Part shown: piece by piece, positions 4,891-36,664 of the stretch
Numbering within the stretch: position 1 is the first letter of the stretch
Layout: the number at the start of each line of letters is the position of its first letter
Assembly (NCBI GenBank): GCA_030068145.1
Contig: JAPJBO010000090.1
Location: 351,123-415,122, forward strand
DNA length: 64,000 nt
Direction: 5' to 3'
Origin: Diplonema papillatum
Lineage: Eukaryota; Euglenozoa; Diplonemea; Diplonemida; Diplonemidae
Program-made: the position numbers and the translations under genes
Notes under the pieces: model-generated
Told to the model about the DNA's origin: nothing
What the model saw: the letters and a program-made list of their open reading frames with translations, nothing else
The model's database searches: none

Positions 4891-4912
4891 CTTTCCTTTT
4901 TTGGTAAATTTT

Positions 4913-5017
4913 CCTTATATCCCACCCCAAACAAATTTGTGCCCTTATATCCCACTTCAAACAAATTTTGTGCCCTTATATCCCAGTTTGGGATTTAAGG
5001 GCACAAATTTTGTTTGA
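4913..5017 (+). repeat. Left terminal inverted repeat of the MULE
   Basis: Contains CCTTATATCCCA three times in direct order and once inverted, with AAACAAATTTGTG spacers (order: forward, forward, forward, reverse). Aligned with the reverse complement of 9704-9808 it differs at only about ten positions, four of them in the centre of the inner palindrome. Confidence 0.85.
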
Positions 5018-5031
5018 TTGTGAAAAAACCC

Positions 5032-5096
5032 TCTGACGGGATTCGAACCCCCACCTCCAGGGTTGAAAGCGGTGGCTCCTCGACTCGGCTACAGCA
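5032..5096 (-). tRNA. tRNA-like sequence (probable pseudogene or Pol III promoter)
   Basis: On the minus strand an A-box-like TAGCCGAGTCG and a perfect B box GGTTCGAATCC are correctly spaced. The acceptor ends do not pair well and the anticodon arm would need an enlarged loop, so no isotype is assigned. It sits 14 bp inside the left inverted repeat of the MULE and reads towards it. Confidence 0.35.
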
Positions 5097-5104
5097 TTCA
5101 TCAT

Positions 5105-5127
5105 TTTTTTTTTTTTTTTTTTTTTTT
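5105..5127 (+). repeat. Poly-T tract
   Basis: Uninterrupted run of 23 T just 5' (minus strand) of the tRNA-like sequence, so it is not a conventional SINE 3' tail for it. Confidence 0.9.
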
Positions 5128-5450
5128 GTTGAGCAAGCAACTACGGAAGACATGCAGGGGGCGAGAACTGCATTTACTTGTACGGGCAAGTCGTTCTTTT
5201 GTTCCTTTTGTCAAACTAGGAAAGAAGAAGGACGGACTCTTCCTGTGCATGGAGTGGAACTCCGACCGTGACTCATGCCACCATCACCAGATAGTCGTTG
5301 TTAGGATAGCTTACCCTTAGGCTGCTAAATTGTCTGTCGGTAAAGATCGTCAGTCGAATCAGATTCGAACATTGTAGTGGCAGCGACAATCATCAATTCA
5401 ATCTCTTAGTGTTATGTATTTTTCGGAAAAAAGATTTGTGGTGAGAAATA

Positions 5451-5668
5451 TTTGGACCAAAATTCGGACCAAAAATTCGGACCAAAAATTCGGACCAAAA
5501 ATTCGGACCAAAAATTCGGACCAAAAATTCGGACCAAAATTCGGACCAAAATTCGGACCAAAATTCGGACCAAAATTCGGACCCCAAATTCGGACCAAAA
5601 ATTCGGACCCAAAGTTTGGACCAAAAATAGGGACCAAAATTTGAACCAGAATTCGGATCAAAAATGGG
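5451..5668 (+). repeat. 13-14 bp tandem array, AAATTCGGACCAA
   Basis: About sixteen units of AAATTCGGACCA(A)(A), degrading at the right end (TTTGGACC, TAGGGACC, TTTGAACC). Unit length varies by one base, so frames through it are not maintained. It lies inside the MULE between the left end and the gene. Confidence 0.9.
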
Positions 5669-6317
5669 ATGTGATTGCGCGTGAGATGCCAAGGGCAGCG
5701 ATTTCCTCGCGATGAAGATGTGCACTGCACTGAACACCGAATGCCACAGTGCGCCACCTGCGGAACGACAACGGAGTGCCGCCTGGACGACGAGGAGACC
5801 AGTCGGCGAAGAACAACCAGACGCCACCTGAAGTGGCGACAGAAGCCATCAATGCATCCTGCTTAGTCGGACGAAGGCGGAACTACCAAGCGGTGCCTCA
5901 ACGTGACGATCAGATGCGAGAACACTTCTAGCCCAAGCTGCACACTGTTTTCCCTTGAATTTCCAAGCCAGCCTCTTTCATTTCGTTTGTTTTTGGTGTT
6001 TGCGTTGTCAGTGGAGGCATAAAGTGGGCTTCAATGCCCCACCCACGACGTCTCAGGCGTTCTGGGTGCCTCAGAGTTTTACACGACTGGTTGCAGTGGC
6101 GCAAGCTGGCTACGCCACACTTCCCGATCGGGCCTATAGCAAACGAGCACTCAAGATCAGAGGGCAGGCGCGCGGCCAGATGCTACAGCCGAGACACGGT
6201 CTCGTGATCCGTCATATTTGTCGATTGGGCCTGAATAACTTAGTAGAGACCTGTCACCCGAGAACTTGCTGATCACCCGAAGCTACAGGAAAACCTTCAC
6301 TGAAGAAAGCAATCGTA
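5669..6317 (+). promoter_or_regulatory. Upstream region of the MULE transposase
   Basis: 650 bp between the tandem array and the transposase start. A short frame at 5675-5866 contains CATCGTTTEC-like cysteines but matches nothing I recognise. No TATA box or leader intron can be named. Any promoter must lie here or in the inverted repeat. Confidence 0.35.
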
Positions 6318-9215
6318 ATGTCGTCAGCTTCCACAATCGGGGCCCTGTATAACCTTCTGCTGCCCATCGCATCAGTGCAGGACATATGTGATATCAGCGT
6401 TTACGCAGGCGATGCTGATCTCGCTCCTTATGTTGGGGCAGGGTTGCCTCCGGCCATTCTCCACCGTGTGCTTCTTCAGCGCCTTAGTCGTCCCAGTCCT
6501 GCACCTGTTGCTGCTGTTCCTTCGGCTTCACTGTCTGGGCCCCCTCCTGCAGCTGCTGCTGTTCCTTCAGCTTCATTGTCCGGGGCCGCTCCTGCTGTTC
6601 CTCTGTCTGGGCCCCCTCCTGCTGCTGCTGCTGGTCCTTCGGCCCCACTCCCTCGGAGTCAGACAGCTACAGATGCGATGCCTGTGGAGGTGAATCCTGC
6701 CGGATGTGCCGTTGTGGGTGGGCAGTACGCAACTGCCGCTGACTTCACTGACGCGGTCGTGGAGGAAGCTGTGGCCACCGGTCGGTGTCTGGTGCGGAGG
6801 AGGAAGGAGAAGGGACGCGTCCGCTTTGAGTGCTCGGGAACGACATCCAAAGGCGGGGCGTGCGCGTTCAAGTGCACCGCCATGCTCCACGCCGATACAG
6901 AGACGTATCACGTGTCCCGAGCTGACGCCCACTCCTGCGTTTTCACGACAGGCTCGGGCGATGAGAAGGCCAACGAGCTGGGCCGCCTGCACTCGGAGTG
7001 GGTGACCCGGCGGATAGCGGCCCATGTCGAGGCGGAGCCGGATCTGTCGGTGAAAGGCATCGTTGCGTCGATGCGCACAAACGGCGTCACCATCACAAGC
7101 AAGGTGGCGCGGTTGGCGAAAGCGCAAGCGCTGCAGGAGACGGGGCTGGACGCTGCATCGGGGTTTCGGAAGCTCCGAGCTTACTTTGCAGCCGTCAAAT
7201 GTGTCGATGCAGAAGCAGTAACAAGCATCGACACAAAGCCCGGCGTCGCGACAGAAGAGGACGCCAACCCGTGGGACGTCTTCGGATTCGCGTTCCTCGC
7301 TTTTGGAGCTTGTGTTCATGCAGCACGCTCCGCGATGTTCGTGTCGGTGGACGGAACCCACCTGACACACGGTGGTGTTTTGTTCGTAGCTGTGGTCCTC
7401 GACCCCATGCAGAAGGTCGTCCCCATCGCTTATGCTCTGGGCCAGACCGAGGACACTGCATCGTGGACCTCGTTCCTCGTGCAGCTGAAGGAGCTCCTGC
7501 CCGAGGGGTTCACCCTGATGTCTGACAGGGACAAGGGGCTCATGAGCGCAGTTAAAACTGTGCTGCCCACCACCCTCCACCTCATCTGCGTCAACCACGT
7601 TGTTCGCAATGTGAGTAAGAGCTTCGGGAAGGGAACCCAGCACCACGTGTGGAAGCTGGCTCATGCAAGCTCGCATGAATCTTACGCCAAGATTCTTGCG
7701 ATCGTTTCCAAGGAAAACGACGACCTGGCCTGCTATCTGGACAAGCTCCGGGACTGCATGTCGGATGCGTACCTGGTGGGGGGGTGTAGGTGCCACCACT
7801 ACACCAGCAATGTGAGTGAAGGCTTCAACAAGAACGCCAAGCTTGCAAGAAGCGCCCAGAATGCCATAAACCTTTTCGAAAGATTGCGCATAGGCCTGAT
7901 GCATCTGTTTGCATCAAGGGCTGGGCAGTTTCCGACCAGGGACGGCGCCACCTTCGTACCGTGGGTGGAGAAAAGGCTGGGTCGCATCGAGTACCAAGCT
8001 CGCGGCTTCTCTGCCACACCTGCAGGACGTGGAGAGTACGAGGTAAAGGAAGCGAAAAGCGGACGGCAGCAAAGGGTGCGCGTTTTGAACAAGGGCGCCG
8101 TCTACAAGTGCACCTGTGTTGGGCAACACGTGTCGCAGCTTCCGTGCGTTCACATTGTGTGTGTGTGCGGACAGCGAAAGGTGCATCCCTTGTCCCTTGT
8201 CGACGCCCTCTACACCGTGGAATCCCTGCGGTCGTTTTACGACGTCAGTGTCCCGACTGTGCTGGACGTAAAAACCCTCGCACTGGACAATCTTGCACCC
8301 CCCCGTCACAAGAATCCCTCAGGCCGACCAAAAGAGAAGCGCATCCCAAGCCGGGGTGAGATCGTCGACGACGACGACTTGCCATTCAAAGGCGCCAAAA
8401 AGAGAAAGGTTACCTGTGTCAGGTGCGGTGGCGAGGGACATTACAAGGTCACCTGCACGAATCCGCCTCTGCCTGCAAAAAAAGACAGCAAACAGGACCA
8501 AGACACGGAGCAAGATTCGAAGTGCCAAGAGCCCGCAGATTCGGGAGAAGAAGCACCGCCGGTGCCAAAGCCCAAAGGAAAAAAAGGGCAGAAAGATCAG
8601 AAATCTACCAAGCCTCCAGCGTCCAAACCTGGAAGGACCAACGTCACCAAGGGAACCTCCACTGGCAAACCCCCGGCCAACGAACAAAAGCCGTATCAGT
8701 CCCGTGCTCTGACCTGGGTGCAGACCACTGGAACGGAACTGGTCCTGGTCCCCGGTGATGGCGACTGCTTTTACAGCTGTCTGGCTAACGTCCCGAACAG
8801 TCAGAACATGTTCTTCTCTGCGCACAACGGAGACGGCCGTGGATCGCGCACATTGCGCACTATCCTTTTCCAAGAGGTGCAGAACTTGGAACCGGAGACA
8901 AGAGCGCTGTTCAAGCAGCGCATACAAAACGGACCGGACGTTCAGCTGCGTCGGGGCGAGTCCAAGATTCTCCTGGCGGCAATTGTATTCAAGGTGAAGA
9001 TTGTCCTCATCTCTGTCCTCCAGGTCCCAGAAGCAGAGCAACCAAGGCTCACGATGTTCACGCATCACCCCGTCGAAGAGCCGACCGTGTACCTGATACA
9101 CGAAGACGATTTGTCGGGTGCCAGCGACCACTTTTCGCTGGTGCGGGGCAAACCGTCACGGCAGCTCCTCCGGAAGTTGTCTATGCAGCTCCGTTTCAAT
9201 TCTGCACTGCTATAG
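6318..9215 (+). CDS. MULE transposase with SWIM, zinc-knuckle and OTU domains
   Basis: Single uninterrupted 965-residue frame with an ATG start. It catalyses cut-and-paste transposition of its element. Domains in order: an N-terminal Ala/Pro/Ser linker with three copies of a PSASLSGPPPAA-like repeat (about 63-112); a MuDR-type zinc-binding region (C172, C182, C186, H205, C207); a DDE/D core with SVDGTH (D345), MSDRDKG (D403), the MULE-typical C424-x2-H427, and SEGFN (E501); a SWIM finger C598-x-C600-x9-C610-x-H612; a CCHC knuckle C700-x2-C703-x4-H708-x4-C713; a lysine-rich linker (720-790); and an OTU-like cysteine-protease domain with PGDGDCFYS (D814, nucleophile C817) and DHFSLV (H938). All expected catalytic residues are present. 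The fused peptidase could act on ubiquitin-like conjugates, which is inference. Family assignment is firm; peptidase activity is untested. Confidence 0.93.
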   Translation: MSSASTIGALYNLLLPIASVQDICDISVYAGDADLAPYVGAGLPPAILHRVLLQRLSRPSPAPVAAVPSASLSGPPPAAAAVPSASLSGAAPAVPLSGPPPAAAAGPSAPLPRSQTATDAMPVEVNPAGCAVVGGQYATAADFTDAVVEEAVATGRCLVRRRKEKGRVRFECSGTTSKGGACAFKCTAMLHADTETYHVSRADAHSCVFTTGSGDEKANELGRLHSEWVTRRIAAHVEAEPDLSVKGIVASMRTNGVTITSKVARLAKAQALQETGLDAASGFRKLRAYFAAVKCVDAEAVTSIDTKPGVATEEDANPWDVFGFAFLAFGACVHAARSAMFVSVDGTHLTHGGVLFVAVVLDPMQKVVPIAYALGQTEDTASWTSFLVQLKELLPEGFTLMSDRDKGLMSAVKTVLPTTLHLICVNHVVRNVSKSFGKGTQHHVWKLAHASSHESYAKILAIVSKENDDLACYLDKLRDCMSDAYLVGGCRCHHYTSNVSEGFNKNAKLARSAQNAINLFERLRIGLMHLFASRAGQFPTRDGATFVPWVEKRLGRIEYQARGFSATPAGRGEYEVKEAKSGRQQRVRVLNKGAVYKCTCVGQHVSQLPCVHIVCVCGQRKVHPLSLVDALYTVESLRSFYDVSVPTVLDVKTLALDNLAPPRHKNPSGRPKEKRIPSRGEIVDDDDLPFKGAKKRKVTCVRCGGEGHYKVTCTNPPLPAKKDSKQDQDTEQDSKCQEPADSGEEAPPVPKPKGKKGQKDQKSTKPPASKPGRTNVTKGTSTGKPPANEQKPYQSRALTWVQTTGTELVLVPGDGDCFYSCLANVPNSQNMFFSAHNGDGRGSRTLRTILFQEVQNLEPETRALFKQRIQNGPDVQLRRGESKILLAAIVFKVKIVLISVLQVPEAEQPRLTMFTHHPVEEPTVYLIHEDDLSGASDHFSLVRGKPSRQLLRKLSMQLRFNSALL

Positions 9216-9703
9216 CCAATCAGCGCGTGCACCATGATCATCTCTCTTTCTTTGTTCAAGTTACTTCACCTCTCTTGTGTCTGGTTGAGGCAGCCTTGCC
9301 AGCTTTTCACGACGGTCCTAAAGTTTAGTTTCTCCTTTTGCTGCGATGTTGATGATGAACTGAGAGCTGACTTGAGGTCAGGATTAGCGGTGTCGGATAG
9401 TAGTATCGTCACAAAGTCCAGGACTCTTAGGAGTACGCACGGAGCTGACTTGGGGGCTGACCATGGTATCATCACAAAGCCCAGACTCTTAGGAGAAGGC
9501 CCTTTTGGGCCCCGACGACTCGGACAGTGACTCGTTGACGACATGCATTTAGGTCGCATTTTCCGAAAGATTTCTTTTTTTGCTTTTTTTGCCGTAGGAC
9601 TCTTCATGGTCGAGCCAACGAGCAGTGGGGTCCACGGCGAGCAGTCTCGGGTTCATTTCCCTCGCCCGGAGTTTTTATTGCCTTTTTATCGACCACAGAT
9701 TTG
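9216..9703. other. 3' region of the MULE, no gene
   Basis: Contains a short imperfect duplication (GAGCTGACTTG ... TCACAAAG(T/C)CCAG ... CTCTTAGGAG at 9364-9434 and 9441-9500). No coding frame. A polyadenylation signal cannot be assigned with confidence. Confidence 0.45.
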
Positions 9704-9808
9704 ACAAAACAAATTTGTGCCCTTATATCCCAGTTTGGGATATAAGGGCACAAAATTTGTTTGAAGTGGGATATAAGGGCACAAATTTGTTTTGAGTGGG
9801 ATATAAGG
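9704..9808 (-). repeat. Right terminal inverted repeat of the MULE
   Basis: One forward and three inverted TGGGATATAAGG units, the mirror image of 4913-5017. The central palindrome reads CCCAGTTTGGGA on both sides of the element in the same absolute orientation, so the four central bases are the main mismatch when the ends are paired. Confidence 0.85.
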
Positions 9809-10274
9809 GCATTACACCTCCTTTTTTTGTTTATTCCAATTGTGCTGCCTACTAGGGCAGCCTTTCATTTTTCAAATCCGAGATAGCTTTCTTGCCAACT
9901 CCTTTCCAAAACCAAAACTGAAAGACCCTGTGGTTCGCAGGGGGGCGGGGGGCGGTAGCTGAACGTGCCAGCAAGGAAAAAGACAGCTGCATTGTATTCT
10001 GTTTTCTGCTGTGTCTTCTTTCGTCGTGGAACCACAGCCGGCGAACAACCCCCACCATTGCCGTGGCTTGCATTGTTTTTTTGTTTGCCTCAGTTGATCC
10101 ACATAGTAGGGTCAGGTAGCGAATTGGTGGTATCTCACATGCGGGAGGGAGGATTCGTTCTGGGGTTCAATCTGTGGGCAGGACCTTGCTTCTTGCGAGT
10201 TTGATGCTGGGACATCTAACACGCGTGAGAGGCAGTGCTATGCCCGAGGGGAAGGGGAGAGATTTTCGTTCGAC
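9809..10274. other. Intergenic, no gene seen
   Basis: No recognised repeat apart from short homopolymers. Nothing coding. Confidence 0.4.
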
Positions 10275-10579: not shown

Positions 10580-11880
10580 GCTCTGTGACCCCCGGGACCC
10601 AAGCGTATTCTGCATCTTGGGCATCAGTTGGTCACGTTGTCGATACCCTTTGCCACAGTATACTTACTACCTGTAAGTGTAGGAAACTAGGCAAAGATCT
10701 GTGTCCCTCCGGGACCCAAGCTTATTCTGCATCTTGGGCATTCAGTTGGTCACGTTGTCGATACCATTTGCCACAGTATACTTACTACCTGTAAGTGTAG
10801 GAAATTAGGCAAAGATCTGTGTCCCTCCGGGACCCAAGCTTATTCTGCATCTTGGGCATCCAGCTGGTCACGTAAACCATTTCCAACACTTCCTCGGTGT
10901 TTGCACAGAACTTAGGTTGTTCGCCTACACATAACAACGCATAACACTACTTGCACGTGTAAGAAGTGCCCATCCAGAGCCCAAGCTTATTCTGCATCTT
11001 GGGCATCCAGCTGGTCACGTTGTGTATACCATTTCCAACAATTCCTCGGTGCTTGTACGGAACTTAGGTTGTTCGCCTCTTAACACTACCTGTACGTGTG
11101 AGAAGTGTCCATCCAGAGCTCAAGCTTATTCTGCATCTTGAGCATCCAGTTGGCCACGTTGTTCACACCATTTTGCTAGTACTCGTACTACCGTTACGTG
11201 TAGGAAAGTAGGAAAATGTGTGTTCCTCCGGGGCCCAAGCTTATTCTGCATCTTGGGCATCCAGCTGGCCACGTTGTCTGTACCATTTCCGACAATTCCT
11301 GGGTGTTTGCACAGAACTTAGGTTGTTTCGCTTACACAAAACAACGAATAACATTTCGTGTTCGTGTAAGAAGTGTCCAACCAGAGCCCAGCTTATTCTG
11401 CATCTTGGGCATCCACTTGGTCAACAGTATTCTTCGGTGTTCGTACAGAACTAAGGTTGTGCCGCCCACAATTTAACACTACCTTTGGAGGAAAGTAGGG
11501 AAGACTGGTGTCCCTCCGGAGCCCAAGCTTATTCTGCATCTTGGGCATCCAGTTGGCCACGTCGCCCACACCTATTCCAACAGTATCATTTCGTGGCGTA
11601 GCTTAAAACTGTTCGCCTACAGATAAACACTTACCTTTACGCGTGGGAAAGTAGGGGAAGACCAATGTACCTTTGGGGCCCAAGCTTATTCTGCATCTTG
11701 GGCATCCAGGTGGTCACGCTGGTCGTACCTTTCCAACGGTATTCTTCCGTGTTCGTAAATTGTTCGCCACATACACGTTACATGTACGTGTGGGAAAGTA
11801 GAAAGACCTATGTCCCGCTGGAGCCCAAGCATATTCTGCCTCTTCGGCACCCAGCTGATCACAGTGTCTTCATCGCGTTC
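10580..11880 (+). repeat. Degenerate tandem array, ~110-160 bp x 10, with conserved hairpin
   Basis: Units near 10583, 10701, 10819, 10969, 11106, 11219, 11376, 11510, 11665 and 11812 share a 5' TC(C)CTCCGG(G/A)(G/A) block, then GCCCAAG-CTTATTCTGCAT-CTTGGGC, then CAGNTGGTCACGTTGT, TTCC(A/G)ACA and a GTAAGTGTAGGAAA-like end. The 7-bp stem is kept in most units. In the unit at 11118-11143 both arms change together (GCTCAAG with CTTGAGC). A lone relative is at 13052-13085. Confidence 0.85.
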
Positions 11881-18953: not shown

Positions 18954-19617
18954 TTACCCGCCCTCGAACCCAGCGAAAACGTGGGGCCTCGACGGGGAGC
19001 TATAGGACCGCTTTCGGTCGCAGTACGGCTTCCTCTGCTGAGGCGCGAGGCGGCGCTCGTTGTAGCCGGCGGAGGGTGACGTCGACCGAGAGGAGGCAGC
19101 GGAGCCCGCGGAGGATCCGGGGACAGGCGGCGACGTGCCGAGGGGTTGGAACTCCGCAAACCGCTGTTCGATGGAGTCCAAATCAACGCACGGCATCCCG
19201 CGGCCCCGCACAGCGACGAACGCCTGGTGCTGCTGCTGCTGGGGAAGAGGAGCAGGCGGCGGCGGCGCGAACGTCTCGAAGACGAACGACCGCTTGCTCT
19301 CGGCCGACGAAGCCGAAGATGCCGCCGCCGCGAAGGAAGAAGCCTCGCCCGCCCTTTGAGCCCCGCACGCCGACGAGTAGCTGCCGTCGGCGGAGTCCCG
19401 GCTGCGGCCCGATGAGCCCAATGGGTCCACCGCCGCCGCCGGCGCGCAGAACGCGGGCTCCTCTACCCAAGCATACGGCTGGTGCTGGTGCACAACCGGC
19501 GTCCTCGGAGAAGCCGTCCTGCAAGAGCCAGCCGCCGCGGCATCGCCTCCGGCGGCGCCGGGCGGCGCGACAGGCGCGAGCCCCCCAGCCCACGTGTTGC
19601 ACTGCAGCATGGGTTGG

Positions 19618-19683
<66 letters not shown>

Positions 19684-20579
19684 GCTGCTGCCGCCTGGTA
19701 GTGGCAGCACGGAGCCGGGACGGCGTATGGGTGGTGGGTGTGCTGGTGCTGCTGCTGCTGCTGCTGCTGGTGCTGCTGCTGCTGGTGCAGCGCTACGGGG
19801 ATCACCAGCTGCGAGCAGAACGAGGCTTTGGGGGATTGCAGGTTTTGTTGCTCCAGCTGCTGGTGCTGCTGCTGCTGCTGCTGCTGGTGCAGCGGCGGCA
19901 CTACGGGGATCACCAGCTGCGAGCAGAACGAGGCTTTGGGGGTTTGCAGGTTTTGTTGCTCCAGCTGCTGGTGCTGCTGCTGCTGCCGGGACAGCATGGG
20001 GGGTGCAGCAGCCGCGGCCGCGTCCCACGAACCTTCGCAACCGGCGACGGTCGGGTAGCACGCGGGCTGCGCCGCCGGCCACGGCAGCGCGGGGGGGGCC
20101 GGCGCTCCCGCGGGGGTCAAACAACACTCAGCCCCAGCAGCAGCAGCAGCAGCAGCAGCGGTTGGGGCCGCGTTTCCGGCGGTGCCTCCACCTGCCGCTG
20201 CAGCTGCCGCTGCCGCCGCCTCGGCCCTGTCGCGGCGGAGCCGCTCTTCGGACGCGCGCGACCGGCGGATGTGGAGCAGGTGGCACGCGGGCCCAGCCTT
20301 CGGGCACTCGCCGTTGAGGAACGGGATGCAGCGGGCGAGGCCTTCCTGGCCCCGCCGCGCGCCCTTCGGCCACCGCCACGGCATCTTGCACTCGGCGCAA
20401 CGCAGCATCTTGACGCCCTTCCGCTGGCGGACGTCGTCCCAGCAGTTGTGCGCGCACGGCGGGGTGAACCGGCTCTCCTGCCCGGCCTCAGCCCCGTCGA
20501 AGTCCTCGCCCGCGAAGTCATCCTCAACCCTCGGCGCAGCGGCGGCGGCGGCGGCGGCGGCAGGGACGGCGGCGGACAT
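18954..20579 (-). CDS. CCCH zinc-finger protein, poly-Q/Ala-rich, one module
   Basis: 541 residues, ATG start, no intron needed. The N-terminal module has a first zinc site C42-x-H44-N-x-W ... RQRKGVKMLR-C61-x2-C64 and then a CCCH finger C84-x7-C92-x6-C99-x3-H103 ending LLHIRR. It is followed by an Ala-rich stretch, two near-identical copies of a LEQQNLQ(T/S)PKASFCSQLVIP block between short Q/H runs, a run of more than 20 glutamines (encoded by CTG repeats at 19617-19683 on the plus strand) and a Ser-rich tail. CCCH fingers usually bind RNA, so a role in mRNA metabolism is likely but inferred. The paralogue is at 55164-57653. A 240-bp GT run begins about 29 bp upstream of the start codon. High GC at third positions sets it apart from flanking repeats. 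Confidence 0.85.
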
Positions 20580-21954: not shown

Positions 21955-22127
21955 AACGGGAGTTCCTCTCGTACTACCCCGTATTGCTGTCGGAATGCGC
22001 TGGCCCGATGGGCTCTCTCTCCATCAGTAGGGTAAAACCAACCTGTCTCACGACGGTCTAAATCCAGCTCACGTTCCCTGTTTGTGGGTGAACAATCCAA
22101 CCCTTAGACAGTTCTGCTTGTCTAGGT

Positions 22128-22159
<32 letters not shown>

Positions 22160-22755
22160 AACGTCGCTATGAACACTTGGCTGCCACAAGCCAGTTCTCC
22201 CTGTGGTAATTTTCCTGTCACCTCCGGCTTCATCCCTTGAACATGAAGCAAGACCAAAGGATCGTTAGGCCATGCTTTCACACACCGAGGATCGGTACTG
22301 AAGATCGTGTATCGAGAAAGCTTTTACCCCTATGCTCTACGCGAGATTTCTGTCCCACTGAGCTTGCCTTAGGACACCTGCGTTAATGTGCATATAAGTC
22401 GAACCTTGAGTGCGTGTGCCCCTCCGAAAGAAAGGTCCATCACACTAGTTCCAGGCTACTTAGCCCGGGTCTCTGGGTCGCGTCCCCCTCCTTCTCTTGG
22501 TCGCCTGCTCTTGCGTCTTGCTGGTCCGTCCGGGCTGGTCGCTTCGCGCTTCTCCTTCGTCTTGCATCACCTCGTCTCCACTGGGCTTCTTCGGCTTGTG
22601 CCACCGCGGGCGACGCGGGCTGCTTCACTGCTCGTCTCCGCGTGGACTGCTCTGTACTCGTTGCCTTATCCGCGATTGCCGCTTCTCGTATCGACCGCGC
22701 CTGCCTTTCCTGCTTTAATGTGCAACAAATGTGCCGCCCCAGCCGAACTCCCCAC
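21955..22755 (-). rRNA. LSU (28S-type) rRNA 3' region, interrupted
   Basis: Minus-strand LSU sequence. 21963-21976 is the sarcin-ricin loop (AGTACGAGAGGAAC when reversed). 22020-22390 matches the conserved region from TTTACCCTACTGATG through GACCGTCGTGAGACAGGTT, CTTTTTGATCCTTCGATGTC and CTAAGGC. 22725-22755 gives GCCAGGTGGGGAGTTCGGCT and GGGGCGGC, the P-loop region. Between these lies a 322-bp insertion flanked by TTAATGTGCA repeats. The helix spanning the insertion still pairs with two G-U pairs. The conserved mid-molecule segments expected upstream are not found, so this is a fragment or pseudogene. Confidence 0.75.
22393..22714. mobile_element. 322-bp insertion in LSU rRNA with 10-bp direct repeats
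   Basis: Bounded by TTAATGTGCA at 22383-22392 and 22715-22724. Removing one repeat plus the insert restores continuous LSU sequence. The insert is purine-rich on the rRNA strand. I see no group I intron core, homing-endonuclease frame or inverted-repeat ends. Confidence 0.6.
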
Positions 22756-36299: not shown

Positions 36300-36664
36300 T
36301 GGTTGCCTGAGGCAGCGAAGAGAAATAGCCTCGACACGTACTTAGTACGTTAGAAGCAATGGATGATATCTAAACCTGTCAATGAACGCAATTGGTGGAC
36401 AAGTCTGGTGCCAGCACCCCGGGGTAATTCCAGCACCAATAGCGTATATTAATGCTGCTGCTGTTAAAAAGCTCGTAGTTGGATCCAGAGCTCAGGTTGC
36501 AAGGTGGCCCAGTTTGCTGGGCATCAGCGTACTGGTGCTTGAAAATGTGCGACCTCCGTGGGCAACAGGCGAGCCTGCTGGTCCTGCTGCTCTATGCTGT
36601 CTGATACCCCCGATTGTCCCCTGAACAAGCCTTGATCACCGAAGGGACAACCGACCCTGAATCG
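36300..36664 (+). rRNA. SSU (18S-type) rRNA fragment, truncated and diverged
   Basis: GAGGCAGCGAAGAGAAATAG, GACAAGTCTGGTGCCAGCA, GGGGTAATTCCAGCACCAAT, AGCGTATATTAATGCTGCTG and TTAAAAAGCTCGTAGTTGGA are the conserved 530-loop region with errors (CACCCCGGGG for CAGCCGCGG). After about 36500 the sequence is unassignable, V4-like in position. A second diverged copy at 54962-55140 starts at the same point. Probable pseudogene. Confidence 0.75.

Follow-up and report, generated by a model that had tools for sequence, protein, structure and literature searches.

Structure of the element and its transposase

The 64,000-nt stretch of Diplonema papillatum contig JAPJBO010000090.1 that we analyzed (the window, whose positions give all coordinates below) contains a complete Mutator-like element (MULE). 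The family to which it belongs, family A, appears on balance from its sequences to be recently active and autonomous, with a transposase that carries an OTU-type deubiquitinase in cis behind a SWIM-type motif and a zinc knuckle. This reading holds for the element family and not for the window copy, which is a poor example of it.

The element spans 4903..9818 on the forward strand (4,916 bp), with ends fixed by copy comparison and target-site duplications. Its termini read GGTAAATTTTCC at the left and GGCATTACACC at the right, and it is flanked by perfectly matching 9-bp duplications of TCCTTTTTT (4894..4902 and 9819..9827). The terminal inverted repeats (TIRs) have arms of 104 bp at 4913..5016 (forward) and 9705..9808 (reverse), the left arm containing repeated CCTTATATCCCA units and being 92% complementary to the right. 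When the window copy and 12 others were checked for the end patterns, both ends were located in six (window, L003, L018, L019, L021 and L022), and all six have target duplications of 9–10 bp (TCCTTTTTT, TATAAACCA, ATTTAAAAA, AAATAAATG, GTTTTGTGAA and TTATATTAT). In L021 the right-end pattern is present twice, with the target duplication at its second occurrence; in L002, L004–L008 and L020 at least one end lies beyond the stretch or does not match the pattern. The DDE domain, the long TIRs and the duplication length are all those of a MULE, for which target duplications of about 8–11 bp are typical.

Within the element, a single ATG-to-stop frame of 965 codons at 6318..9215 (forward, as are all features of the protein) encodes the transposase, as the sequence-only reading had proposed; that reading had said nothing of the ends of the element, its TIRs or its target duplication. 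The complete DDE core claimed there is borne out by an above-cut-off match to Pfam MULE (PF10551; E 9.9e-13, 48.8 bits against a cut-off of 27.6) at residues 342–431 (7341..7610), which include D345 and D403, with E501 beyond it at 7818..7820; Transposase_mut also scores above its cut-off (E 4.8e-8). For comparison we use six further families from the same genome, namely A′ (L015, L016, L024), B (L010, L009), C (L011), D (L027), E (L026) and F (L031). In an alignment of six MULE families, D345, D403 and E501 are invariant, as are the four residues of the predicted SWIM finger, C598-x-C600 and C610-x-H612 (CxC...CxH; 8109..8153), even though the window protein has no listed match to Pfam SWIM and some relatives score under the cut-off of that model. 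The predicted CCHC knuckle has the pattern CX2CX4HX4C at residues 699–715 (8412..8462) and scores 12.8 bits with Pfam zf-CCHC, under the cut-off of 20.8; the pattern is retained in five of the six aligned families, and the frame of the sixth (L031) stops upstream of it. A long Lys/Pro-rich linker then leads to the C-terminal OTU-like domain (8709..9212), which is damaged in the window copy and in which D814, C817 and H938 are present. A Pfam scan of the frame up to E 1 gave no PF02902 (Peptidase_C48), and there is no integrase model, as a Ginger1-type core would have, among the five Pfam families found in it.

Intact copies and the damage in the window copy

A search of the 271-Mb assembly, to which all genome searches refer, returned at least 67 stretches matching the transposase (47 of 3,334 candidates scored), at least 14 of which, counting that of the window, span the full query without an internal stop. 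Of the 13 further full-length copies we compared 12, all but C1435. They encode three distinct 986-residue proteins from six distinct coding sequences, any two of which differ by at most 7 mismatches across the 2,961-bp coding sequence, and the window copy differs from them at 4–9 of 2,898 coding sites. In the region 3′ of the frame, the window copy and ten of these copies differ at 13–15 sites (419–484 compared); in L004 and L020 this region is much more divergent from the window copy. Because its copies are nearly identical, family A is to all appearances recently amplified. The left terminus is also widespread: each of the 40 places scored, the best of 930 candidates, holds a stretch at least 95% identical to it, and 35 of the 40 are on contigs in which no family A transposase matched. 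Two of these places (L041 and L042) have only the terminus and related subterminal stretches in common with the window element, with no coding match to it.

Since all 12 copies encode 986 residues, the difference reflects losses of 57 + 6 bp in the window copy. The 57-bp in-frame deletion (19 residues; junction 8966..8967) and the 6-bp in-frame deletion (2 residues; junction 9081..9082) both lie within the OTU-like domain. The 19 lost residues, FDAWVRVQSAHRAWASTEA, have conserved counterparts in the alignment with families A′, B and C and align as well with a YGD-containing stretch of OTU domains borne by retroelements of this genome (see below), so that the segment between C817 and H938 is incomplete while both residues are present. 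We also considered the 57-bp gap as an intron and ruled this out, since A′, B and C have alignable coding sequence at that point. The sequence-only reading had therefore placed the domain and its two catalytic residues correctly, but the domain that holds them is not intact in this copy. The window copy is a deletion derivative, with an OTU-like domain that is probably inactive or broken, and intact copies could have moved it in trans.

Two noncoding features of the element vary among copies. An internal tandem array of 12–13-bp units (GGACCAAAAATTC; 5433..5682, forward) differs in length, with 11 exact-pattern units in the window copy against 18–66 in 11 of the 12 others, where some arrays are cut by the stretch limits and the L005 stretch stops short of the array. 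Near both element ends lie tRNA-like stretches with B-box-like motifs (5028–5100 and 9605–9672). The left motif occurs in 8 of the 13 copies; the L004, L005 and L008 stretches end short of its position, and those of L002 and L007 should include it but lack the exact pattern. The right motif has an exact match in the window copy only among the 13. ARAGORN reported no tRNA in the window, and Rfam matches inside the element lie far under gathering scores, those at the ends reflecting the inverted repeats.

Relationship of the C-terminal domain to OTU proteases

We scanned the isolated domains of families A, A′, B and C and the full-length frames of A, B, C, D and E with Pfam. The intact family A domain has the OTU model PF02338 as its best match (E 0.0029), aligned over profile positions 1–121 of 128, and its 18.5 bits miss the curated cut-off of 23.3; within the whole 986-residue protein the match has E 0.074. 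PF02338 is likewise the best, sub-cut-off match of the A′ domain (E 0.015). The B and C domains give weak motif matches to Peptidase_C65 (otubain; E 0.073 and 0.094), and an unrelated Pfam match of the C domain is about as strong. For the window domain taken alone, Pfam gives no match up to E 10. Profile searches, which the sequence-only reading had suggested as the check on its domain calls, thus bear out the MULE core, leave zf-CCHC under its cut-off and SWIM unlisted, and place OTU under its cut-off in the intact copy and nowhere in the window copy.

Comparison with the OTU domains carried by retroelements of the same genome gives stronger, if indirect, support. A profile of three such domains matches solved structures of OTUD5 (E 6.9e-9), OTUD3 (E 1.4e-8) and other OTU proteins. 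In profile–profile comparison the MULE domains match these retroelement domains with 93.9% probability (E 1.6e-7, 130 columns), and a five-family MULE profile does so with 95.6%; an unrelated endonuclease alignment used as a control reached 0.9% (E 0.064). With a profile built from seven retroelement OTU domains and no MULE domain, six of seven MULE domains, including the damaged one of the window, scored above all 200 of their own shuffles, and family D aligned across 95 profile positions. Searches of the PDB gave less. With phmmer, the OTU matches of the window domain are confined to a short motif in polymerase-borne viral OTU constructs (E 0.24 or higher), and a four-family MULE profile found OTU proteins mostly through the motif (E 0.065 or higher). 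The top phmmer match of the window domain, a nanobody (E 0.036), is surely due to chance.

The putative catalytic residues are conserved in most families. Specifically, A, A′, B, C and D all have the D-x-x-C nucleophile motif, and a His-Phe pair is retained in A, A′, B and C, where domain identity to A is 29–72%. In family D, the end of whose domain is misplaced in the domain alignment, we read GHFQV by eye, and this lines up correctly in the full-length alignment. All seven retroelement OTU domains have His-Tyr at this position. An aromatic residue following the catalytic His has been described as a 'gatekeeper' that marks deubiquitinases (PMC7391069), and its presence would favor a ubiquitin-like substrate over general proteolysis.

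Several observations weigh against an active OTU protease. No MULE domain that we scanned exceeds the curated Pfam cut-off, the two alignments behind the profile–profile comparison have only four and three sequences, and the family A match to the retroelement profile is limited to the nucleophile motif. Family E is not separated from chance in the shuffle test (60 of 200 shuffles score as high), and it reads NGSFY where DGDCFY would stand and lacks the His-aromatic pair, so that both Cys and His are gone. Its domain (L026 2220–2696) is nevertheless homologous to that of family C (BLASTP E 2e-14), and five places, L026 included, share its score in the MULE genome search and have 999-codon frames; catalysis is thus dispensable in at least one lineage. 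In family F the domain is split over two frames and has His-Cys instead of His-aromatic, with the nucleophile Cys present in GDGCCFY. Single-sequence AlphaFold2 modeling of the damaged window domain gave a mean pLDDT (predicted local distance difference test) of 36.0, and the same procedure gave 37.4 for the DDE region of the window protein; both models were set aside as uninformative, that of the domain also on the proximity of C817 and H938, which the sequence-only reading had named as a check.

Selection on the domain and history of the fusion

The OTU-like domain is under purifying selection. Between A and A′, the ratio of nonsynonymous to synonymous substitution rates (dN/dS) in the domain is 0.18 for L015 (180 codons), 0.17 for L016 (149 codons) and 0.20 for L024 (108 codons), at dS values of 0.96–1.10. 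The same comparison gives 0.08 for the DDE core, where dS is 1.7 and near saturation, 0.12–0.13 for the SWIM–knuckle region and 0.34 for the N-terminus.

Among 13 MULE lineages sampled, six have the OTU-like domain with its Cys (A, A′, B, C, D and F) and family E has it without. The profile used for this six-frame search includes L026 and L027, whose high scores are therefore circular, and L031 is the only find from outside it. Five lineages (L025, L028, L029, L030 and L033) have no OTU match in any of the six frames of their stretches; L032 has none either, but its frame runs past the stretch and we left it uncalled. Read by eye, the frames of the five OTU-less lineages end in a similar Cys-rich stretch, approximately WxCxxCDxDYCxxC. 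These five form one clade in the tree (support 98/99). Families A, A′, B, C, E and F group together with support of 84/94, under the tool's threshold for firm branches, and family D is on a long branch of unsure placement. The simplest history suggested by these sequences is a single old gain followed by a single catalytic loss. Judged by these comparisons, the fusion is old and common to several MULE families of this genome, and a recent capture is excluded. An OTU domain inside the transposase, which the sequence-only reading had singled out as unusual, is indeed found there across the family, but with several old MULE families sharing it, it is no single curiosity.

Two of the related families also have recognizable element ends. 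In family B (L010 and L009, whose flanks are alike and which apparently represent one place present on two contigs), 87-bp TIRs that are 97% identical flank the frame, with no target duplication visible. In family C (L011) the TIRs measure about 109 bp and are 96% identical, and ATATTTATA is seen by eye at both sides. Scans of viral contigs with the full transposase alignment and with the OTU-domain alignment found no relative.

OTU domains on other mobile elements of the genome

A genome search with PF02338 yielded 656 candidates, and the best 150, which we scored, all lie above cut-off, many of them in frames of more than 1,000 codons that recur at equal score. We examined seven of these places, picked to represent different score groups. 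Five (L034, L036, L037, L039 and L040) are frames of the long interspersed nuclear element (LINE) type with a Pfam reverse transcriptase (RT) and an above-cut-off OTU domain N-terminal of it, four of them also carrying an endonuclease domain. In the other two (L035 and L038) the above-cut-off OTU domain follows an RT-like region that was recognized by eye. We call these two Penelope-like on the basis of a Pfam GIY-YIG domain in L035, RT-like motifs and their mutual likeness by eye; Pfam lists no RT in either, and the L038 contig stops before the GIY-YIG region.

A search with the Ulp1 model PF02902 gave 5 matches among 7 candidates. With OTU common and PF02902 rare, the mobile elements of this genome seem to favor OTU over Ulp1. 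A broader reading, which we offer tentatively, is that the MULE clade and the LINE-type and GIY-YIG (Penelope-like) retroelements each gained a deubiquitinase of the OTU type, whereas SUMO-protease-type domains remained rare. From the sequences we infer that these acquisitions may have been independent in each element class. If so, ubiquitin conjugation would be one of the main barriers that mobile DNA meets in this lineage, answered alike by unrelated elements.

Function of the domain

If the OTU-like domain folds as an OTU, it could trim ubiquitin from whatever the transposase binds, and the SWIM-type motif and knuckle might hold the protein on DNA or RNA during deubiquitination. The most likely substrates would be chains on the transposase itself, whose removal would let it escape proteasomal clearance, or chains on chromatin and on repair proteins located at the excised DNA and the target DNA. 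The removal of ubiquitin-like marks suggested by the sequence-only reading is plausible. For transposon-borne domains of this kind, the VTD authors proposed protection from degradation of proteins needed for transposition (PMC9741609), and the Ginger1 authors suggested that they may activate repair factors during transposition (PMC2836005).

A rival that we consider unlikely, if worth keeping in view, is a ubiquitin-binding or targeting module that recognizes ubiquitinated chromatin or ubiquitinated host factors and directs the transposase, while its catalytic activity would be secondary or lost. Family E (L026, C65), in retaining a homologous domain without Cys and His, fits such a module and suggests that some lineages may need no more than binding. 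This dead form is nevertheless found in one of seven lineages, and the others argue for catalysis through the retained D-x-x-C (A, A′, B, C, D) and His-Phe (A, A′, B, C, and D in the full-length alignment).

Polyprotein processing is known from some viral OTU proteases, and a self-processing protease that frees the transposase or zinc knuckle from the C-terminal part would suit both the position of the domain behind a long Lys/Pro-rich linker and the occurrence of OTU domains in multi-domain retroelement frames here. We regard it as improbable, since the linker is poorly conserved (dN/dS of 0.91 between A and A′ over 30 alignable codons, a small sample), leaving little room for a retained cleavage site. 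The His-aromatic gatekeeper, moreover, is described as favoring Gly-Gly substrates (PMC7391069). We give as little credence to the domain being some other papain-like or unrelated fold with a chance DGDC motif: sub-threshold Pfam scores and a window copy without any match would be expected of it, yet the near-full-length PF02338 alignment of intact family A, the shuffle test and the profile–profile match all speak for an OTU. MULEs do carry host fragments, and damage in the window copy would befit a functionless passenger taken from a host gene in a Pack-MULE-like event, but retention of the C-terminal position in 7 of 13 lineages (for A′ and F on piecewise readings) and purifying selection on the domain make this the least credible explanation, and we disfavor it. 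A putative OTU-type deubiquitinase carried in cis remains the interpretation that we favor.

Other features of the window

Directly downstream of the element, at 10596–11861, lies a family of tandem repeats whose ten 40-bp core units are 115–157 bp apart. Isolated fragments of large- and small-subunit rRNA were found with Rfam at 22040–22405 (reverse) and 36325–36439 (forward). By its rRNA fragments the assembly is eukaryotic. Genome searches for alveolin, light-harvesting and T-box families gave no match; those for alveolin and T-box are weak, since the T-box control hit nothing anywhere and the alveolin control hit a bacterium alone. A 541-aa frame at 18954–20579 (reverse) contains long stretches of poly-Q and poly-A, with Cys-rich motifs close to its start.

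Comparison with known systems

Proteases of ubiquitin-like modifiers recur on mobile elements, and the question at stake is whether an OTU domain aids transposition, and whether a tethered deubiquitinase protects the transposase, the target site or a repair step. The genome described here makes this directly testable, since it holds near-identical intact copies, a sister family that lacks the nucleophile and can serve as a natural control, a deletion derivative, and other classes of element that also bear OTU domains. The MURA transposase of MuDR has a DDE core, a SWIM motif and a zinc knuckle, and MURA-type transposases are not known to have an OTU domain; the proteins described here share the first three features and differ from them in the OTU-like domain.

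In the open-access literature, no MULE with an OTU domain was reported among the matches listed, which is weak evidence, as most subscription journals and all of Repbase lie outside it; in the relevant passages of one such match, a choanoflagellate survey, OTU means operational taxonomic unit only (PMC6875170). The theme itself is known, with Helitrons carrying OTU, Mutators carrying Ulp1 and Ginger1 carrying either all published (PMC2836005). The Ulp1-carrying MULEs, including the KAONASHI/KIU Vandal elements of plants and the Mutators of hydra and lancelet, are likewise members of the Mutator superfamily with a protease of ubiquitin-like proteins (PMC2836005, PMC13317346). In KIU, however, Ulp1 (C48) is described on a VANC-type gene (PMC13317346), whereas here the OTU-like domain is within the transposase and the frame has no C48 match. 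Helitrons and Helentrons with OTU and VTD also encode deubiquitinase-type domains (PMC9741609), but they are Rep-helicase rolling-circle elements with a domain order unlike that of the MULE. The same source reports demonstrated activity for VTD and describes transposon OTU domains as unassayed as of 2022 (PMC9741609). A close parallel is Ginger1, a DDE transposase with an additional C-terminal OTU or Ulp1 domain and thus a near-identical logic; it differs in having a Gypsy-integrase-type core and CCGG/CCGT target duplications (PMC2836005), in place of the MULE core and 9–10-bp duplications seen here. What is new in this genome is therefore not the combination of transposase and deubiquitinase, a theme already known, but its occurrence on a MULE core.

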